A stretch of 64,000 nucleotides of DNA from Rhizobium sp. CF122 (GTDB lineage: Bacteria > Pseudomonadota > Alphaproteobacteria > Rhizobiales > Rhizobiaceae), in contig NZ_AKKA01000075.1 in NCBI RefSeq assembly GCF_000282035.1, positions 1 to 64,000 on the forward strand. Reading direction: 5' to 3'. Each line of letters starts with the position of its first letter. Within the stretch, counting starts at the first letter, position 1. The notes beneath the pieces were generated by a model. The model was not told the origin of the DNA. It did no database searches and worked only from the letters and a program-made list of their open reading frames with translations. A program made the position numbers and the translations under genes. Positions 17,433 to 26,494 of this stretch are shown in pieces.

Positions 17433-18614
17433 TCAGGCGCGGCGGGCGTGCCCGAGTGTTTTCAGCCACGTGTCGAAGGATTGAGCGCTCTCGGCCTCGG
17501 ACTCGGGCTCGACCGAGTGCCCGAGATAAGAGGGCATGGCCACGTGCCTCGCCTCGCGCGGGCTGTAGCCGAATTCCTTGCTGAAGGCGCGGCTGAAATG
17601 CGCGGCTGAGGAAAAACCTGCTGCAAAGGCGATATCGACGATCTGTTGCCGGTTGGACGTATCACTCAAAGCGGCGTGTGCGGACAAAAGCCGGCGTCGC
17701 TGAATATAGTGATGCACGCCGCCGTCCGGTTCGAAAGCCTGATAGAGCCGCGTGCGCGAGACGCCCAATTCCCGGCACAAACGGTCGGTTGTCAGGTCGG
17801 ACGACATCAAATTGTGCTGGACGAAGTGGTAGACGCGCTCCTTCAGCGGCAGATTGTTGTGCGGCTCTGGCGATGAGAGGTGTGCTGACGACGACGAAAC
17901 CCAGGTCAGGATCATGTCACGGATGGTCTGGACGACATGCGGAAGATCAACCTCCGCCAGCTGCGCGAGCTTCGCCTCCACGCCGTCCAGATAGTCGATC
18001 AGGAGCTTGGCACGCGTTCCGGAAAGCGCGATGTTGTTCTTGATCTCGGTGGAGGCGGGATGGAGCAGTTCCCGAGGCAGATACAGGGACAGGGTTTGGG
18101 CGTCCGTCGATCGACCGCGAAAGGGATGCCCCAAACTGCGCAACTCCACCTTTCCAGGTTCGCCCTCGGAAACGTGTCCACCGACTTCCGTCCATGTCCG
18201 GCCGCTGCGCAATACAGAAATATGCCAGTGATCGATAGGGCTTGACCTCACCTTCGCTTCCGAACGCATGTAGCTATGGGCGGGGGTGTTTTGCTGCACG
18301 ATGAGCATGCCGCCGAGGTTCCAGGCCGCGTGGTCGGCCACAAAGCCCATGGGAGAACCATCCGGGCGCCTGATATCGACAAGCGGCGCGACGTAAGACT
18401 GCCAGGCGGCAAATTGCTGTTCCGGTTCGAGGTCGCGCGTGGAAAACCGCAACGGCTTCAATGCTGGTGGTGGTGCGGGCTGCTCTTCTTGTGGTTTCGT
18501 CTCGCGAGGAAAGCGACGACGTTCCATCTGCACAGCCCTGCCGTCGTCACCGACGCCGGCATCGGATGGTGCGGGGGAGGAGCGAGATCGTTCGTCTGGC
18601 AATTCGGCCTCCAT
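17433..18614 (-). CDS. AraC-family transcriptional regulator
   Basis: 393-residue regulator. Residues about 55-225 form an AraC-binding-like N-terminal domain, and about 275-375 a typical two-helix-turn-helix AraC domain (LCRELGVSRTRLYQAF and IVDIAFAAGFSSAAHFSRAFSKEFG). The first 29 residues are Pro/Arg/Ser-rich, so a start at 18527 (MERRRFPRE) is also possible; neither has a strong ribosome site. It lies 48 bp behind the last gene of the partner-switch operon and could be its seventh member or a separate unit. The ligand is unknown. Confidence 0.88.
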   Translation of the reverse strand: MEAELPDERSRSSPAPSDAGVGDDGRAVQMERRRFPRETKPQEEQPAPPPALKPLRFSTRDLEPEQQFAAWQSYVAPLVDIRRPDGSPMGFVADHAAWNLGGMLIVQQNTPAHSYMRSEAKVRSSPIDHWHISVLRSGRTWTEVGGHVSEGEPGKVELRSLGHPFRGRSTDAQTLSLYLPRELLHPASTEIKNNIALSGTRAKLLIDYLDGVEAKLAQLAEVDLPHVVQTIRDMILTWVSSSSAHLSSPEPHNNLPLKERVYHFVQHNLMSSDLTTDRLCRELGVSRTRLYQAFEPDGGVHHYIQRRRLLSAHAALSDTSNRQQIVDIAFAAGFSSAAHFSRAFSKEFGYSPREARHVAMPSYLGHSVEPESEAESAQSFDTWLKTLGHARRA

Positions 18615-18662: not shown

Positions 18663-19001
18663 TCAGGTCATCCTTAGATCCACGCCAGGGTGCAGCTTCT
18701 TGAGGTTGGGCAGCGACTTCGTCTGCCAAGAAATCTGTGATGACCCCAGCACGGTCAAATGAATGTCCGGGCGGTTGCGCGCTTCGATTGTCAGTTTGGC
18801 GAGCAGGTTTATGCCGGAGGAATTGAGGAACTCCAGGCCCGTCAGGTCCAAAGTGGTTTTGCCGCCCCCAATTTCGAGCGCCTTCATCGCGAGTGCTTGG
18901 ACAGGCGCATACGCGTCAGGTCCCGACAGACGCATTGTCCCATCAAAATAGACGGTGCTGCCTTCGGACCAGACGCGGTAGGCTTCTTCTCTAATTTCCA
19001 T
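18663..19001 (-). CDS. STAS-domain protein (anti-sigma-factor-antagonist type)
   Basis: 112-residue stand-alone STAS protein, resembling the Slr1659-type regulators. The conserved phospho-acceptor region is [15 protein letters not shown], with Ser61/Ser62 at the position phosphorylated in SpoIIAA-like antagonists. It would be phosphorylated by an HATPase-type kinase and dephosphorylated by a SpoIIE-type phosphatase, both encoded just upstream. It is the last gene of the coupled six-gene set, 18 bp behind the HATPase gene. The output partner is unknown. Confidence 0.85.
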
Positions 19002-19019
19002 GGCGCACCTCCTGCCGTT

Positions 19020-19574
19020 TCATGCCGGAATTGCCATCGCGGCATATGTTTCAAGCCTTGTTCGTTCGCGAGGGTTGTCCTCCTCGAAGAGCCAGGCAAA
19101 CTGCACCTCGTAGTCGCTCATCAAGGTGAGCAAACCCAAGCCGGACGCATCGCCGGTCGCGGTCGTGGCATTTGACTCGATCTGCCTGATAAGCAGATCG
19201 CCGGGATCGCCGCTCGTTACCTTCCCGAGCAGTTGCTTGAATCTGTCGGCCGTCTCGCTGTCGACAAAATTGGACACCCTGAGTCGAAAATAATCCGGTT
19301 GTGCACGCGCTTCTACCACGACTTCTCCACGAACGCGAAACTTAATGGCGTTCTCGATCAGTTCGTTTGCGAGGTAACCGATGTCCTGCTTGAGCTGATT
19401 GTAGATCCGCTTCGATGGACGAAACCTTGGCGCCATCATCTCGGCGATGAAGTCGGACGTCATGCCGGAATGCTTCCAGGCGAGATCAAGCGGACCGTCA
19501 AACAACCGAAGCCGGAACGCGTGAGTAGTATCGGGGGAGGTGAGGTGTTTCTGTCCAAAGAGCGTGACGGTCAT
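19020..19574 (-). CDS. HATPase-fold regulator (Slr1658-like, anti-sigma/kinase type)
   Basis: 184-residue protein with GHKL ATPase motifs. The N-box is NELIENAIKF (70-79, Mg-binding Asn75) and a Gly-rich lid region is GDASGLGL (141-148). This resembles Slr1658-type regulators that pair with Slr1659-type STAS proteins. By analogy with SpoIIAB/RsbW it would phosphorylate the STAS partner(s). It sits between the phosphatase (4 bp gap) and the STAS gene (18 bp gap). Confidence 0.8.
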   Translation of the reverse strand: MTVTLFGQKHLTSPDTTHAFRLRLFDGPLDLAWKHSGMTSDFIAEMMAPRFRPSKRIYNQLKQDIGYLANELIENAIKFRVRGEVVVEARAQPDYFRLRVSNFVDSETADRFKQLLGKVTSGDPGDLLIRQIESNATTATGDASGLGLLTLMSDYEVQFAWLFEEDNPRERTRLETYAAMAIPA

Positions 19575-19578
19575 GTCA

Positions 19579-21936
19579 TCACCTATGCCGCATCACAACC
19601 AGCGTGATGTCATCATGTATTTTCTGCGTTCCGATATAGGCCATCAGCCCTTCGATAATACCGTCCTTTACCTCTTCGGCGGTCTGGCCATGCAGGCGCC
19701 GTGCGCTCTGACAAAGCCGATCGATGCCGAACAGCTCGCCCCGTGTATTTTCGGCTTCCGTGATACCGTCCGTATGAAGCACGATCAGGTCGCCTTTCTC
19801 GAAGGATATCTCGCGAGTATCAACAAAAGGCGAGATATCGGATTCAAGTCCAACCGGAAGGCCGAGGTCACCGGTATCTATGCGCTCGACCTCGCCTGTC
19901 TGGCGAATGACAATGAGGTCCTCATGTTGTCCGGAGATCGTGAGGCGCTCACCATCGTAGTCAAGAAAAGACAAGCTGAGGTGCTTATTGGTCCTCGTCC
20001 GCTCGATATTCTTGAAGATCGCTCGGTTCAGGTGTGCAAGGAATTTCGATGGGTCGGTTTCTCCCGCCTCGAGCAAGGCGCGGGCGACCGATTGCACCAT
20101 CAGCATCAGAACGCCGCTCTCCAGGCCATGACCTGTAACATCGCCAATACCGATCTTCAGGGTCCTGCCGTTCTGCAAGACGTCATAGTAGTCGCCACCA
20201 ACCTCGTCGGCGGGACGCATATAAGCGGCAATTTCCAAATGCTCTACCGCGCCGAGCTCCGTTGCGCGTGGCAACACCATCATCTGGATGTGTCGGGCCA
20301 CATCGAGCTCGGCGCCGAGGCGTAGGTTTTCGCTCTTCAGCTGCGTATTCAATGCCGAGATTTCTTCCTTTGCCTCCTCGATCTCTTTCGTGCGTTCCTC
20401 GACCAGATTTTCGAGGTTCTCGGTGTGGAAGCTGATCTGTTCGGCCATGCGATTGAAGGCAAGCCCCGCCTGCGCGACCTCATCCTTGCTGGTAATCGCC
20501 ACCCGCACGGAATAGTCCTTCGCTTCAATGCGCTTTGCCGCGGCCGCCAGGGCACGGATCCCGCTGGTGATGCGCTTCGACGCCGCAAATACTGCGGCTG
20601 CGACGATGAGCAGTGACACGAGAACCGCGAGGATCTGATAGAGCAGGATACGGTTGGTCGCCCGCGCTATCTGCTCCCTGGCAGCGATCAGCGAGGCATA
20701 AATCTCCCGCTCTGGTACGACAATACCAAGCGACATGACTTCGCGCTGAACGGGGCCCTTGACCCAAAGATTGGAAGGGCGGAGCTGTTTTGTGACCACC
20801 AGATAGGGCACGTCCTCGCCATTTTCGCTCAGTGAAATGTGCTGAATGACGCCATCCGCATCGAGTGGAAGAGAGGCAATGGCTTTCTGCGAACTGTTTC
20901 GGAGCGAGCGGTCAACTCCTGTCACGCCTTGGTTGGTCGCATCGCTTGCCGCGCGCAAGCCGATGACCTTCTCCCCGGTTCGGTTGATTGCAACAACATT
21001 GCCGTTTGACATGGCGAGGAAGCCGAAACCGCTTTCCGCGACCTTCACGTGTTCGACGATTTCGCCAAGCTGATCGAGCGTGATGTCGGCGCCGGCCGTC
21101 CCAGCTACGTCGCGGCGATCAGCCGTCCAGAGAGGATGGAAGAAGCTGACGATCAGCTTTCCTGTTATGGCGTCGGTGTAGGGGGCGGTCTGGGTGATGT
21201 TTTCAGGAACGGGGCGGGAGGCTGGATTTTGCGCCCACTGCTGCCAAGATTCGTAAATGCCGGGGAAGAAGAAGTCCCAGAAGTTCGCCTCATTGTGGCC
21301 GGGATAGAGCTTGTCGAATGTCTGCGCCTGATCGGTATAGGGAGCAGTTCTGAAGATCGGCCGCTCTTTCGGACCGATGTAGTACATTTGAAGTTTGGAG
21401 GCTCCGTTTTGCAGGAGGTTCGGGGCAACGAGATCAAGAACGGCACTGGTTTCGATATCGGCCTGCACTTGCGGCAGCGGACGATGATCCTTGTCGAGGA
21501 GGTAGCCCCAGACACTGACGACGGATTGTGAGCCGGGAGCGTTCTGCGCCCAGCCGCCGATGCTGTTGAAGCTTAGGGTCACAGCATCAGGGTCAGCTGT
21601 GGCCATTGCGTCGCCAACCTGGTTGTTTCTGATCGGTCGATCGATCTGCGCCTGTAGCACGCCGGCGAGGGCCTTAACGTCGGAATGCACCTGGTCGAGA
21701 AGCAGCCCGACCTGCGCGACCGTGGAATCGGTGGAGGAGCGGATATAATCCTGGCTCGCCCTTTCTAGGCCCTCGCCGACCTGAGTGGTCGCATCGCGTG
21801 ACAGACGTTGCACATTCCAGAGCGCAAGGCCGCCGCTGACAAGAAGATCGAAAAGCACGGCGCCGCCGACGACGATGATGAATTTCGTCCGAAACGAGCG
21901 CAATCCGAGGCTTGGTTTCTTTGAAGCACCGGTCAT
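19579..21936 (-). CDS. Membrane SpoIIE-type (PP2C) serine phosphatase with dCache-like sensor and HAMP
   Basis: 785-residue sensor phosphatase. Membrane span 1 is about residues 18-40, followed by a large periplasmic dCache-like sensor (about 55-425), span 2 (about 430-452), HAMP (about 453-505), a coiled coil (about 507-545) and a SpoIIE/PP2C domain (about 555-785). Metal-binding motifs are intact: DEVGGDYYD, GDVTGHG, HTDGITEA and DDITLVVMR. The architecture matches SiaA of Pseudomonas and related partner-switch phosphatases. Its likely substrates are the phosphorylated STAS domains encoded next to it. The start overlaps the stop of the STAS-methyltransferase gene by 4 bp. Confidence 0.92.
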   Translation of the reverse strand: MTGASKKPSLGLRSFRTKFIIVVGGAVLFDLLVSGGLALWNVQRLSRDATTQVGEGLERASQDYIRSSTDSTVAQVGLLLDQVHSDVKALAGVLQAQIDRPIRNNQVGDAMATADPDAVTLSFNSIGGWAQNAPGSQSVVSVWGYLLDKDHRPLPQVQADIETSAVLDLVAPNLLQNGASKLQMYYIGPKERPIFRTAPYTDQAQTFDKLYPGHNEANFWDFFFPGIYESWQQWAQNPASRPVPENITQTAPYTDAITGKLIVSFFHPLWTADRRDVAGTAGADITLDQLGEIVEHVKVAESGFGFLAMSNGNVVAINRTGEKVIGLRAASDATNQGVTGVDRSLRNSSQKAIASLPLDADGVIQHISLSENGEDVPYLVVTKQLRPSNLWVKGPVQREVMSLGIVVPEREIYASLIAAREQIARATNRILLYQILAVLVSLLIVAAAVFAASKRITSGIRALAAAAKRIEAKDYSVRVAITSKDEVAQAGLAFNRMAEQISFHTENLENLVEERTKEIEEAKEEISALNTQLKSENLRLGAELDVARHIQMMVLPRATELGAVEHLEIAAYMRPADEVGGDYYDVLQNGRTLKIGIGDVTGHGLESGVLMLMVQSVARALLEAGETDPSKFLAHLNRAIFKNIERTRTNKHLSLSFLDYDGERLTISGQHEDLIVIRQTGEVERIDTGDLGLPVGLESDISPFVDTREISFEKGDLIVLHTDGITEAENTRGELFGIDRLCQSARRLHGQTAEEVKDGIIEGLMAYIGTQKIHDDITLVVMRHR

Positions 21937-23111
21937 AGCGGCTTTTGCCCCGACGCTGCCCAGATAGGCCAGCCGGCATAGCCTCTCGGGTGAAGCGCGG
22001 CAAAGATATGATCTCTAAAGCCCTGCCTGAACCGCGCGATGAATTCGGGCGTGTCTCCTCGTCTGACGGACATTTCCCCGGCATAAACATCTTCCCAGGC
22101 TTCAATGACGTCGGCGAATTCCTGCGGATCGCCGTCGAGGTTGGTAACCATGAAACTTTCGATCCTCACATCCTCGAAACCAGTATCCAGCAGCAGGCGA
22201 GAACCCTTTGGCCCCATTTCGACGTCCATGTCGAAATGGCGAAAGAGCTTGGCAACCTCGTTATAGGTCCACTGGATGCTGTCGGCGCGGGGCTCACCCA
22301 GGCAGTGGGAGTTCTTTTCGTTGGTGATGTAGACCCTGCCGCCCGGCTTGCAGATGCGATAAAGCTCCCTCAACAGGAGTTCGGGTCGGTTGAAGATCTG
22401 CAGCGAGTGCCGGCACGTCACAAAATCGAACTGGTCGTTTTCGAACAGCATCTGCGATGCATCGCCATAAGTGTACTCGATATCGCGAACGCAGAAGTCT
22501 TCCGCAACGGAGCGCGCATAGTCGAGGCTTGCCATGGAATGGTCGAGCGCGACTATCCTGGCGGGGTCGAATTCCTTCCTGACAAGCATTGCGAAATCAC
22601 CGATGCCGCAGCAAATGTCGGCGATCGTCATGCCGCTGCGAAGTCCGTGCCGTGGCAGGATCTCCCGCTCGTGACGCCAGGTCATTTTCGTCTGTGTCCG
22701 GAGGATAGGGATGAAGCTCTCGTTCTCGACAAATGTCTGACCGGGATAAAAGGCAGAATCATATATCTCCATGGAGATGTTAGGCGAGAGTTCGCTCAGG
22801 TGCCGAAACACCTGCGTTGCCCATGTGACAACACTCGACGTCAGAACGACAATCCTGAGCTCCGGCCGCGAGCGGGAGGCGTCGACCAGGACCCGCGCCA
22901 GGGCACGGAATGCCGTGCTGTTCATGTGGGTAACGCGTTTCAGATTGACGTAGAAGACCCCTTGGACCGTTTCAATCTTGTCTCGCAGCAGTAAGAGATC
23001 ATCCGCGATGTCGGTGATCGAACGGGGTCGGAGAACGCCGGTTGCTACAAATTCCTGATTGCCGGTGTCGAATTGCGTCGTAAAGACAGGTGAAGAACCG
23101 TTCGGGGTCAA
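21933..23111 (-). CDS. STAS domain fused to SAM-dependent methyltransferase
   Basis: 392-residue two-domain protein. Residues 1-125 are a STAS domain with a serine in the phospho-acceptor position (HMNSTAFRAL, Ser65). Residues about 145-330 are a class I methyltransferase with SAM motif I ADICCGIGD (164-172), an acidic residue ending beta-2 (VALDHS) and the post-motif TCRHSLQIF. The methyl acceptor is unknown; the fold is closest to UbiE-like small-molecule methyltransferases. The arrangement suggests methyl transfer gated by STAS phosphorylation. It overlaps its neighbours by 4 bp on both sides. Confidence 0.88.
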   Translation of the reverse strand: MTPNGSSPVFTTQFDTGNQEFVATGVLRPRSITDIADDLLLLRDKIETVQGVFYVNLKRVTHMNSTAFRALARVLVDASRSRPELRIVVLTSSVVTWATQVFRHLSELSPNISMEIYDSAFYPGQTFVENESFIPILRTQTKMTWRHEREILPRHGLRSGMTIADICCGIGDFAMLVRKEFDPARIVALDHSMASLDYARSVAEDFCVRDIEYTYGDASQMLFENDQFDFVTCRHSLQIFNRPELLLRELYRICKPGGRVYITNEKNSHCLGEPRADSIQWTYNEVAKLFRHFDMDVEMGPKGSRLLLDTGFEDVRIESFMVTNLDGDPQEFADVIEAWEDVYAGEMSVRRGDTPEFIARFRQGFRDHIFAALHPRGYAGWPIWAASGQKPL

Positions 23112-23629
23112 TGGAGGAGCCTCTCGAGCGGCAGGTCGACAACGAAGGTGAGCGCGTCGGCGCTCGAGGCGCGTAGCTCTATGTCCGCGTCATAGTTGAC
23201 CGCCAATCCCAATAGGACTGCTTGCTCCAGGGGAGCCGTCTCGTCGGCGATGACCTCTACGTAGTTTGCCAGTTGTCCACTGTGTTTCAGACCCTGGACG
23301 AGTTCAAAGTAAAAGCGACGCTGTTGCGACGGGCACGGAAAGCTCAACTCGATCCGTTCTATCTGTTCATGACGATAGAAGACGCATATCAGTTCGCCCT
23401 CTTGCGCGTTCGAGCGAAACGACATCTCGAGGAGTTCGTTGAGGGCCGAAGAAAGAAGATTGGAGTGGCGCAGCGGATCACGGCGGTCATGGCTGACCAT
23501 TCGGGCGACATAGTTCGAGAGTTGATCGCAATGCAGCCAGTCGGCCGTGAACGTTGCCATCTCCATTTCCAGATTGAGAAGTTGCTCGAAAGCCGTGTCT
23601 GCTGTCGTCGCCGCCTCCTGCCTTTTCAA
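23108..23629 (-). CDS. Degenerate HATPase-like partner protein (TTG start)
   Basis: 173-residue protein starting at TTG 23629. This start lies 6 bases after AAGGAGG and overlaps the stop of the upstream gene (TTGA), so it is preferred over the longer frame reaching 23809. A segment NELLEMSF (64-71) resembles the N-box of the HATPase gene downstream, but Met69 replaces the Mg-binding Asn and no Gly-rich lid is visible. It is therefore probably a non-catalytic relative or scaffold. I do not recognise a named family with confidence. Confidence 0.65.
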   Translation of the reverse strand: MKRQEAATTADTAFEQLLNLEMEMATFTADWLHCDQLSNYVARMVSHDRRDPLRHSNLLSSALNELLEMSFRSNAQEGELICVFYRHEQIERIELSFPCPSQQRRFYFELVQGLKHSGQLANYVEVIADETAPLEQAVLLGLAVNYDADIELRASSADALTFVVDLPLERLLH

Positions 23630-25368
23630 CCTGCACCTCCTTGGCCAAGCGCCATCCCGGCTCCCTCCGGACCCGTCATGGTCCTCGTTGCGCCGCCGTT
23701 TCCCCGCCGCGCTTTCCGGTGGCCGATGAATTGGCCAATGTGGTCCACATGCATCGGTGGGCTCAGGAAGTGGCCCTGCAGCCTGTCGCAGCCCTCCTCC
23801 AGCAACCACGCGGCCTGTTCGGCTGTCTCCACGCCTTCGGCAGTGACACGCATGCCAAGCCCGTGCGACAGCGCAATGACGGACCGCACGATCGTCTGGC
23901 TCTTTTCGTCGTCCAGGAGGTCGTTGATGAAGTATTTGTCGATCTTGATGTTATCGAAGGGAAAATTCTTCAGGTAACTCAAGGATGAGTACTCAGTCCC
24001 GAAGTCGTCGAGGGAGATCTGGATGCCAAGCACGTTGAGGATGTTCAAAGTATCGAGGTTATTGATCGTGCGCTCCAGAAGGACGGTTTCCGTAATCTCG
24101 AGTTCCAGGCGTTCGGCGGGAAAGCCGATAAGATCGAGAGTTTGCGACACGCGATCAGTGAAGCCTGTTGTCAAGAATTCCGCCGGGGATAAGTTGATGG
24201 CAACGGTGTAATGGTCCGGCCAACTCAAGGCTTCCCGACAGGCTTCGTCCAGCACCCATTGGCCGATTTCGCTCATCAGCCCATCTGCCTCTGCCATCGG
24301 GATAAAGGCGATCGGAGGGATCACGCCGAGCCTGGGATGGCGCCAGCGCAGGAGAGCCTCGAAGCCGGTTACGGTGCGCGAGTTGTCGACAAGAGGCTGA
24401 TATTCGAGGAAGAACTCTCCATGCTGAAGCGCGACTCTAAGGCTGCGCCTCAGCACCTCCCGTTGCTCCAGCACTACCAACATGCTGGGATCAAAGGTTC
24501 GCGCGCGGCGGCGTCCTTCCTTTTTTGCAGCATAGAGGGCGACGTCGGCTGCTTTCATTAACTGCTCGCCCTCATCGCCATCGCGCGGCGCAATCGCAAT
24601 GCCGATACTGGCTCCCACAAAGACAGTGATGCCGTCTACCACGAATGGCTTCTTGAATTCGCCAACCAGCGCGTCAGCCAGTCGCTCGGCCTCACGTGGT
24701 TGCTCTTGAGCAGTTTGGATGATCGCGAATTCGTCACCGGCAAGGCGGAAGGCTGTCTCGTCCATGCCAAGCACGCTTCGGATCCTGCCGGCGGCAAGCT
24801 TCAGAACAATGTCTCCAGCGCCGTGCCCTAGCGTATCGTTGACTGGTTTAAAGTCGTCCAGGTCGATCTGCATCAGCGCAAGACCGCGCTTGTCGTCGGT
24901 AGGAAGAAGCCGCCCCAACTCGTCGCTGAACTGCCGGCGGTTGGGCAATCCCGTCAGGACGTCATGGGTTGCCTGGTGTAGGAGCAGCGCTCGCTCCTGC
25001 TCGTGCGCAGTTGTCGTCTCATTGCGATCGGCAGCGCCGATTTCGACGATCGCCAACCCCTCCCTGGCCGGCAGCAGCAGCAGGTCGTACCGGTCGTGCG
25101 TTGATACACCTAACCGGATGGATTGTGGCCGGCCGGTCTTGATGACGAGTTGTACGAGGTCTGCGGACGGAGGGGTTGCCAGCGCCGGGTAAATATCAGC
25201 CAACTTCGTGTGGGCCTGCTCGTTAAAGCCCGAGCGCTCGGCGAGTTTTTCGGACCAATCGACAAGAACGAGGTCGAGATCCCAGAGCGAGAAAACTGCC
25301 TCGGCGCGGTTGAAGAATTCGGATCCTTGTGGAACCAGCTTAGGCCAATTCGCACGATTTTCCGGCAT
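23626..25368 (-). CDS. PAS-GGDEF-EAL cyclic-di-GMP signalling protein
   Basis: 580-residue cytoplasmic protein. A PAS-like segment (about 15-110) is followed by GGDEF (about 130-290) and EAL (about 300-550). The EAL domain keeps its catalytic set (FEALLRW with EAL at 337-339, AINLSP, ELEITETVLL, DDFGTEYSS, KIDKYFI, AEGVET), so phosphodiesterase activity is likely. The cyclase motif reads AGDEF (Ala210), a variant that is sometimes active. It leads the operon and probably ties the partner switch to c-di-GMP. Confidence 0.92.
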   Translation of the reverse strand: MPENRANWPKLVPQGSEFFNRAEAVFSLWDLDLVLVDWSEKLAERSGFNEQAHTKLADIYPALATPPSADLVQLVIKTGRPQSIRLGVSTHDRYDLLLLPAREGLAIVEIGAADRNETTTAHEQERALLLHQATHDVLTGLPNRRQFSDELGRLLPTDDKRGLALMQIDLDDFKPVNDTLGHGAGDIVLKLAAGRIRSVLGMDETAFRLAGDEFAIIQTAQEQPREAERLADALVGEFKKPFVVDGITVFVGASIGIAIAPRDGDEGEQLMKAADVALYAAKKEGRRRARTFDPSMLVVLEQREVLRRSLRVALQHGEFFLEYQPLVDNSRTVTGFEALLRWRHPRLGVIPPIAFIPMAEADGLMSEIGQWVLDEACREALSWPDHYTVAINLSPAEFLTTGFTDRVSQTLDLIGFPAERLELEITETVLLERTINNLDTLNILNVLGIQISLDDFGTEYSSLSYLKNFPFDNIKIDKYFINDLLDDEKSQTIVRSVIALSHGLGMRVTAEGVETAEQAAWLLEEGCDRLQGHFLSPPMHVDHIGQFIGHRKARRGNGGATRTMTGPEGAGMALGQGGAG

Positions 25369-25621: not shown

Positions 25622-26494
25622 TCAGAATTCGCGCAGACACTTCATAACTTCCCGCAGACCTTTTGTGAGGTGCTTGTCCCGGCGCAAAACAATGCCGAGC
25701 TGACGGACCAGGCGCGGCCTGACGGGCGACGTTATGAGAAATCCTGCACGGTCTTGCTTCAACGCGAGTGCAGGCAGCAGCGACCAGCCCAATCCTGCGG
25801 CGACCAGCTCCTTGATCGCTTCAACGCTTCCGAACTCCATCGCAGGCTGTATGCGGACGCCCGCGTCGGCGAACCACCCGTCTGTGGCAGCGCGCGTGTT
25901 GCCGCCCTCGTAGAGCAGGAGAACCTTGTCTTTGAGAAACGCGGCGTCGGGTCCTCCTTCGGGTATTTCGCTGTCTTTGGGAGCCACTGCCAGCAACTCG
26001 TCCTCGTAGAAAGGCTCGATCTCCAGCGACCGGCCAGAGGCGGGAAGGGTGACGACGGCGAGGTCGAGTGCGTTTGCCTCAAGATCACGCAAGACCTCTT
26101 CGGTGTTGCCGATCCGGACGGTAATCTCAAGTCCCGGCATTCGCTTTCTCGCGGACGCGATTGCGCGAGGAAGCAGGTGTATTGACGCCGTCCCGCCGCT
26201 GCCGATCCTGACTCGACCGGCCGAGCCCTCTCGATGTGGCGTCATTGCATCGGCCGCCGCACCACACTCTTCCAGGATGCGCCTTGCGTGAACGAGGAGA
26301 TCCGAGCCGGCTGGCGATGGCAGTGCGCGTCGCCCCACGCGCTCGATCAGCCGAACCCCAAGCCGCTGCTCGAGCAGTTTGACCTGCAGACTGACGGCCG
26401 GTTGGGTAAGGCCAACCTTGTCGGCCGCCGCCGTGAAACTCCCTAGATCGATGACGGTTACAAAGGCCAAGAGTTGATCAAGGTTGGGTATCAT
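25622..26494 (-). CDS. LysR-family transcriptional regulator
   Basis: 290 residues. An N-terminal winged helix-turn-helix (FTAAADKVGLTQPAVSLQVKLLEQRLG, about 20-46) is followed by a periplasmic-binding-protein-like effector domain. It faces left and is divergent from the DUF1127 gene, with a CTTAT-N7-ATAAG dyad 9 bp ahead of its start. The target genes and effector are unknown; autoregulation and control of the divergent gene are plausible. Confidence 0.92.
   Translation of the reverse strand: MIPNLDQLLAFVTVIDLGSFTAAADKVGLTQPAVSLQVKLLEQRLGVRLIERVGRRALPSPAGSDLLVHARRILEECGAAADAMTPHREGSAGRVRIGSGGTASIHLLPRAIASARKRMPGLEITVRIGNTEEVLRDLEANALDLAVVTLPASGRSLEIEPFYEDELLAVAPKDSEIPEGGPDAAFLKDKVLLLYEGGNTRAATDGWFADAGVRIQPAMEFGSVEAIKELVAAGLGWSLLPALALKQDRAGFLITSPVRPRLVRQLGIVLRRDKHLTKGLREVMKCLREF

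Follow-up and report, generated by a model that had tools for sequence, protein, structure and literature searches.

Partner switches are best known for the control of sigma factors and, in the SiaABCD system, of a diguanylate cyclase. The SpoIIAA/SpoIIAB and RsbV/RsbW switches combine a STAS antagonist, a HATPase kinase, and a PP2C phosphatase. SiaABCD of Pseudomonas aeruginosa brings together, in one operon, a membrane phosphatase with HAMP and PP2C domains, a HATPase kinase, a STAS-like phospho-acceptor, and a c-di-GMP enzyme. The acceptor SiaC contains N67-T68-S69, in which helix 2 starts with the Asn and T68 follows it; phosphorylation at T68 blocks binding of SiaD (PMC7647112, PMC8457831). 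The slr1658 and slr1659 superfamilies are defined by sequence only, and no methyltransferase or second pair was found described for them; work on slr1658 of Synechocystis has dealt with how cells recover from iron limitation (PMC7555055).

Herein, we analyzed a locus in a 64,000-nucleotide stretch of the genome of Rhizobium sp. CF122 (contig NZ_AKKA01000075.1), referred to as the window. The original prediction had placed six left-facing genes at 18663-25368, and all six open reading frames were found at these coordinates on the minus strand. They are given below, together with a neighboring regulator gene:

23626..25368, minus strand: GGDEF-EAL protein, 580 aa (Pfam GGDEF 8e-42, EAL 1.4e-72)
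23108..23629, minus strand: degenerate HATPase, 173 aa, TTG start, with a predicted SpoIIAB/SiaB-like fold (NF047703 7e-8, below the cut-off)
21933..23111, minus strand: STAS-methyltransferase fusion, 392 aa, TTG start (NF047705 3.6e-9, Methyltransf_25 8e-18)
19579..21936, minus strand: membrane dCache-HAMP-SpoIIE (PP2C) phosphatase, 785 aa, a SiaA-like sensor (SpoIIE 6.6e-41, HAMP 8.7e-12)
19020..19574, minus strand: intact HATPase, 184 aa, slr1658 superfamily, predicted STAS kinase (NF047703 2e-51)
18663..19001, minus strand: STAS protein, 112 aa, slr1659 superfamily, predicted phosphorylatable antagonist with Ser61 (NF047705 1e-37)
17433..18614, minus strand: AraC-family regulator, not part of the core (HTH_18 1.5e-16)

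The genes are as tightly packed as had been claimed (4-bp overlaps or gaps of 4-18 bp). The GGDEF-EAL gene overlaps that of the degenerate HATPase by 4 bp (TTGA, with the TTG start at 23629), the latter overlaps the fusion gene by another TTGA, and the fusion gene overlaps the phosphatase gene by ATGA; gaps of 4 bp and 18 bp precede the genes of the intact HATPase and the STAS protein, respectively. Scans for promoters and terminators at the operon returned no more sites than in shuffled sequences. Pfam and NCBIfam searches together with the predicted folds recovered the GGDEF, EAL, SpoIIE, HATPase, STAS, and methyltransferase domains that had been assigned, but not the PAS domain, for which Pfam gave no match within residues 1-120 of the GGDEF-EAL protein.

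Three of the products, namely the phosphatase, the intact HATPase, and the STAS protein, resemble a complete switch. The intact HATPase (173.8 bits, NF047703) and the STAS protein (128.5 bits, NF047705) both exceeded the curated NCBIfam cut-offs of 100 bits for the slr1658 and slr1659 superfamilies. Among 93 homologues each, the N-box NE..EN of the HATPase and the NSSG of the STAS protein (motif LNSSGIN) were invariant, the GLGLLTL box of the HATPase was conserved, and the Asp motifs of the PP2C domain were kept in about 99% of the phosphatase homologues. Adjacent genes thus encode a PP2C phosphatase, a HATPase with a catalytic N-box, and a STAS protein with a Ser/Thr acceptor, as in other partner switches. 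Judged by their residues, the three proteins form an intact SiaABC-like switch, whose activity we infer. The SiaABCD-like partner switch of the original prediction was thereby borne out at the level of motifs, and a periplasmic input is probable; the dCache match of the phosphatase (2.9e-8) was below the Pfam cut-off. The contrast drawn between one intact and one degenerate HATPase held as well, the catalytic residues being conserved in the first and lost in the second.

Of the systems known, SiaABCD and the slr1658/slr1659 families come nearest to the locus. Nevertheless, it differs from SiaABCD in several respects. The kinase and STAS protein belong to the slr1658/slr1659 families, the c-di-GMP enzyme is a GGDEF-EAL protein rather than a diguanylate cyclase with a stalk, its gene is dispensable, and SiaABCD has no counterpart to the second, degenerate pair with its methyltransferase. 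Scores against the Sia families were below the cut-offs for the phosphatase (SiaA equivalog, 135.4 versus 700 bits; residues 418-783, the HAMP-PP2C half, matched at 2.4e-39), the intact HATPase (SiaB family, 13.4 versus 85 bits), and the GGDEF-EAL protein (SiaD equivalog, 89.6 versus 290 bits, over the GGDEF domain only). Unlike the SpoIIAA/SpoIIAB and RsbV/RsbW switches, the cluster contains no sigma factor, its outputs are apparently enzymes, and its second HATPase lacks the ATP-site residues.

Both HATPase/STAS pairs of the operon are drawn from the slr1658/slr1659 superfamilies, and duplication is the simplest reading because they match the same two families. The second pair did so below the NCBIfam cut-offs of 100 bits: the degenerate HATPase scored 32.1 bits with NF047703, and the STAS domain of the fusion scored 36.9 bits with NF047705 over residues 11-113. 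The fusion consists of a STAS domain (about residues 10-118) followed by a class I SAM methyltransferase (about 126-392). Throughout 94 homologues, the degenerate HATPase had no glycine (GLGL) box; it keeps NEL.E, and the Asn that we take, from general knowledge of SpoIIAB, to bind Mg was replaced in all 94 by M, V, L, T, or I. Its AlphaFold model (pLDDT 87) was nearest in the PDB to SpoIIAB (top) and SiaB, indicating that the fold of an anti-sigma-type kinase is kept without the ATP-site motifs.

The loss extends to the predicted partner. In the AlphaFold model of the fusion (pLDDT 83), the second helix starts with an invariant Asn; the acceptor position, residue 65, comes next and, on this model, corresponds to T68 of SiaC. 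Among 94 homologues, it was Asn in 57, Met in 19, Ser in 14, and Ala in 4, so that 80 carried Asn, Met, or Ala. By these residues, the second HATPase and the STAS domain of the fusion constitute a co-degenerate pair. In the 19 loci with Met, which belong to R. leguminosarum, R. phaseoli, and relatives (L020, L021, L071, L077, L082, and 14 others), the degenerate HATPase was sharply divergent, with p-distances of 0.70-0.75 to that of the window; the coincidence of the two changes suggests a joint change of an interface.

The original prediction had both STAS proteins phosphorylated and methyl transfer set by STAS phosphorylation. In its strict form, an HATPase would phosphorylate the fusion at Ser65 or Thr66 and the phosphatase would reverse this, directly setting methyl transfer. 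The window's own fusion, one of the 14 with Ser at position 65, reads NST at the acceptor, and position 66 was Thr in 79 of the 94 homologues, so the fusion could still be phosphorylated in some species. However, the acceptor was lost in most homologues while the true STAS protein kept NSSG in all of its own, and 12 of the 94 fusions had no Ser/Thr at either position, yet the operon was retained. We regard this explanation as quite improbable. Because the fusion acceptor and the Mg-binding Asn of its cognate HATPase are lost, most species have only one STAS protein that could plausibly be phosphorylated, which contradicts the claim for both and makes methylation set by phosphorylation of the fusion unlikely.

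With the acceptor and the ATP site gone, control of the methyltransferase would pass through competition rather than its own phosphorylation, and the phosphorylatable STAS protein more probably acts on the fusion in this way. We propose, at about even odds, that a SiaABC-type switch gained a second HATPase/STAS pair by duplication, which is catalytically dead and carries a methyltransferase regulated by binding competition. A periplasmic ligand would alter the SpoIIE phosphatase; the intact HATPase would phosphorylate the STAS protein at Ser61, a step that the phosphatase would reverse. The STAS domain of the fusion would dock on the degenerate HATPase, and perhaps also on the intact one, via the old kinase-substrate interface, where the methyltransferase would be held inactive or localized. 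The dephosphorylated STAS protein would compete for this interface, so that the methyltransferase would be freed or re-placed, the direction of control being a guess. Where the GGDEF-EAL protein is present, the dephosphorylated STAS protein would also bind and tune it, as SiaC does SiaD. The further idea that the dead pair serves as a phosphorylation-insensitive dock for the methyltransferase, with one phospho-STAS protein controlling both methylation and c-di-GMP turnover by competition in a two-tier switch, is more tentative, and we would bet somewhat against it.

Of all parts of the operon, the methyltransferase domain was conserved best, with a mean consensus of 86%, compared with 79% for the phosphatase, 75% for the STAS protein, 65% for the intact HATPase, and 54% for the degenerate HATPase. 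PDB matches of the fusion model were class I methyltransferases, the best being 3mgg, and included LahSB and phosphoethanolamine methyltransferases. The domain shares its fold and SAM motif with UbiE/phosphoethanolamine-type enzymes (3mgg, PMT), but differs in the N-terminal STAS domain and in scores below the cut-offs of all NCBIfam methyltransferase models among the matches listed, those for UbiE/MenG included (NF001244, 64.2 versus 216 bits; TIGR01934, 63.5 versus 158 bits). From this fold, methylation of a small molecule or a lipid head group is probable.

To examine conservation, 84,980 species genomes were scanned with the fusion alignment, which gave 273 relatives; the best 80 and 13 further loci were inspected. 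All six genes occurred together in 79 of the best 80 of the 273 relatives, and with order and strand both preserved in 78, from Rhizobium, Sinorhizobium/Ensifer, Mesorhizobium, Neorhizobium, and Phyllobacterium. The one incomplete set (L054) lies on a short contig, where the genes end after the phosphatase, and the GGDEF-EAL gene of Ensifer aridi L086 runs in the opposite direction. This strain, LMR001, has the cluster twice, on two separate scaffolds (L078 and L086), with the GGDEF-EAL gene inverted in one. In 7 of the 13 further loci, from three other families, the GGDEF-EAL gene was missing and the five other genes were kept. The gene set is not a product of chance, because its order is kept across several genera and families, and the original prediction, which had staked itself on conservation of gene order outside this strain, passed in this regard. 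Among 297 whole genomes of the order, 12 carried the fusion, and exactly the same 12 carried an slr1658-family HATPase; the degenerate HATPase gene was never apart from the fusion gene in the loci examined. Many copies of the cluster reside on large plasmids or chromids, among them that on pSymB of S. meliloti 1021.

Based on these loci, the conserved operon has a core of five genes, to which the GGDEF-EAL gene is accessory, as the core occurs without it in three other families. The GGDEF-EAL protein passed the Pfam cut-offs for both domains, and its catalytic motifs (AGDEF; EAL, DDFGT, K, and E residues) were intact in 87 homologues, apart from a G in place of A in the EAL signature of one. 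No SiaD-like docking stalk was seen by eye in the GGDEF-EAL protein of the window. A locus of a distant relative from another Pseudomonadota family (L145:4485-9140) encodes a diguanylate cyclase, slr1658 and slr1659 proteins, a PstS-like periplasmic binding protein, and a Cache-like SpoIIE phosphatase. It has a single HATPase/STAS pair with the cyclase gene beside it, an arrangement consistent with a modular switch whose outputs vary; given the PstS-like gene, the ligand of the L145 switch may be periplasmic. As for c-di-GMP as an output of the operon, the link is credible, given the GGDEF-EAL gene in all 80 best relatives of the 273 and the L145 cyclase, but it is not part of the core, being absent in three families.

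Near the core, five of the seven loci without GGDEF-EAL encode an additional SpoIIE phosphatase, which is soluble and carries a coiled coil at its N terminus:

L026:5232-6131, minus strand: second soluble SpoIIE phosphatase
L025:13789-14787, plus strand: second soluble SpoIIE phosphatase
L027:6323-7210, plus strand: second soluble SpoIIE phosphatase
L031:3195-4160, minus strand: second soluble SpoIIE phosphatase
L032:7113-8078, minus strand: second soluble SpoIIE phosphatase

The coiled coil of these proteins is conserved (DLxLLYxATIxHGEAVEDQL), and a similar one precedes the GGDEF domain of the L145 cyclase. By analogy with SiaD, both are perhaps a common STAS-docking stalk.

Pairing of the components was assessed by partial correlations of pairwise distance matrices for 27 representatives, with all other proteins removed. 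The STAS domain of the fusion covaried with the intact HATPase (0.56; 0.58 without the divergent R. leguminosarum-type group) and with the degenerate HATPase (0.47; 0.26 without that group), the methyltransferase domain covaried with the periplasmic domain (0.56), and the STAS protein covaried with the GGDEF-EAL protein (0.46). Permutation P was about 0.001-0.002 for these four highest values, although many other pairs were nominally significant. For the same 27 representatives, the expected covariation between the intact HATPase and the STAS protein was absent (-0.10), and the two HATPases did not covary (-0.09). The pattern supports pairing of the fusion with the HATPases and of the STAS protein with GGDEF-EAL, in a suggestive manner only, as this weak test misses the expected kinase-STAS pair.

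These values bear on two other readings. HATPases of the SpoIIAB/SiaB-type fold dimerise, and the degenerate HATPase might be a regulatory subunit of the intact one in a pseudokinase heterodimer, the fusion being merely co-localized and GGDEF-EAL being the true output. The covariation of the STAS protein with GGDEF-EAL and the cyclase of the single-pair locus L145 agree with this, but two HATPases that do not covary, a GGDEF-EAL gene missing from three families that keep the other five, and a methyltransferase that is the most conserved part all speak against it, and we consider it unlikely. Alternatively, the intact HATPase alone could be the switch, exchanging the STAS protein for the non-phosphorylatable fusion, with the degenerate HATPase as a chaperone or stabilizer of the fusion. 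The most robust covariation, that of the fusion's STAS domain with the intact HATPase, is what such an exchange would predict. The degenerate HATPase, however, also covaries with that domain, and its gene overlaps the fusion gene by 4 bp in the window and is not separated from it in the loci examined, so we give this explanation only a small chance.

Under the preferred reading, in which a dead pair carries the methyltransferase and competition controls it, a methylation reaction is probably governed by an external signal, as is c-di-GMP in many species. If true, a methyltransferase as the most conserved output, reached via a pseudokinase/pseudo-substrate pair, would widen the range of partner-switch targets, and a dead duplicate would have been re-used as a wiring element. 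The original prediction knew of no description of this exact gene set as a system, and none was found among 5.39 million open-licence papers, subscription papers being mostly beyond the search; nor did SMb20447-SMb20452, which we take to be the S. meliloti tags of the cluster genes, give a match in the open-licence literature. A c-di-GMP survey of S. meliloti may have covered the GGDEF-EAL gene. The question is directly testable, as the cluster is present in tractable model symbionts, namely S. meliloti 1021 (pSymB, 461177-462325, within a cluster at about 458.9-465.6 kb), R. tropici CIAT 899, and R. johnstonii 3841 (in a 5.06-Mb record, taken as the chromosome from its size).

As for the neighboring genes, a LysR gene upstream (25622-26494) was considered as part of the unit and rejected, as a close homologue lay near the cluster in one relative only. 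The AraC-family regulator gene is located 48 bp downstream of the operon on the same strand. Its product may be the operon's own regulator: 31 of 93 loci encode a homologue with 45-87% identity close to the cluster, with four arrangements among them, and the nearest paralogue in its own genome reached only 39%.
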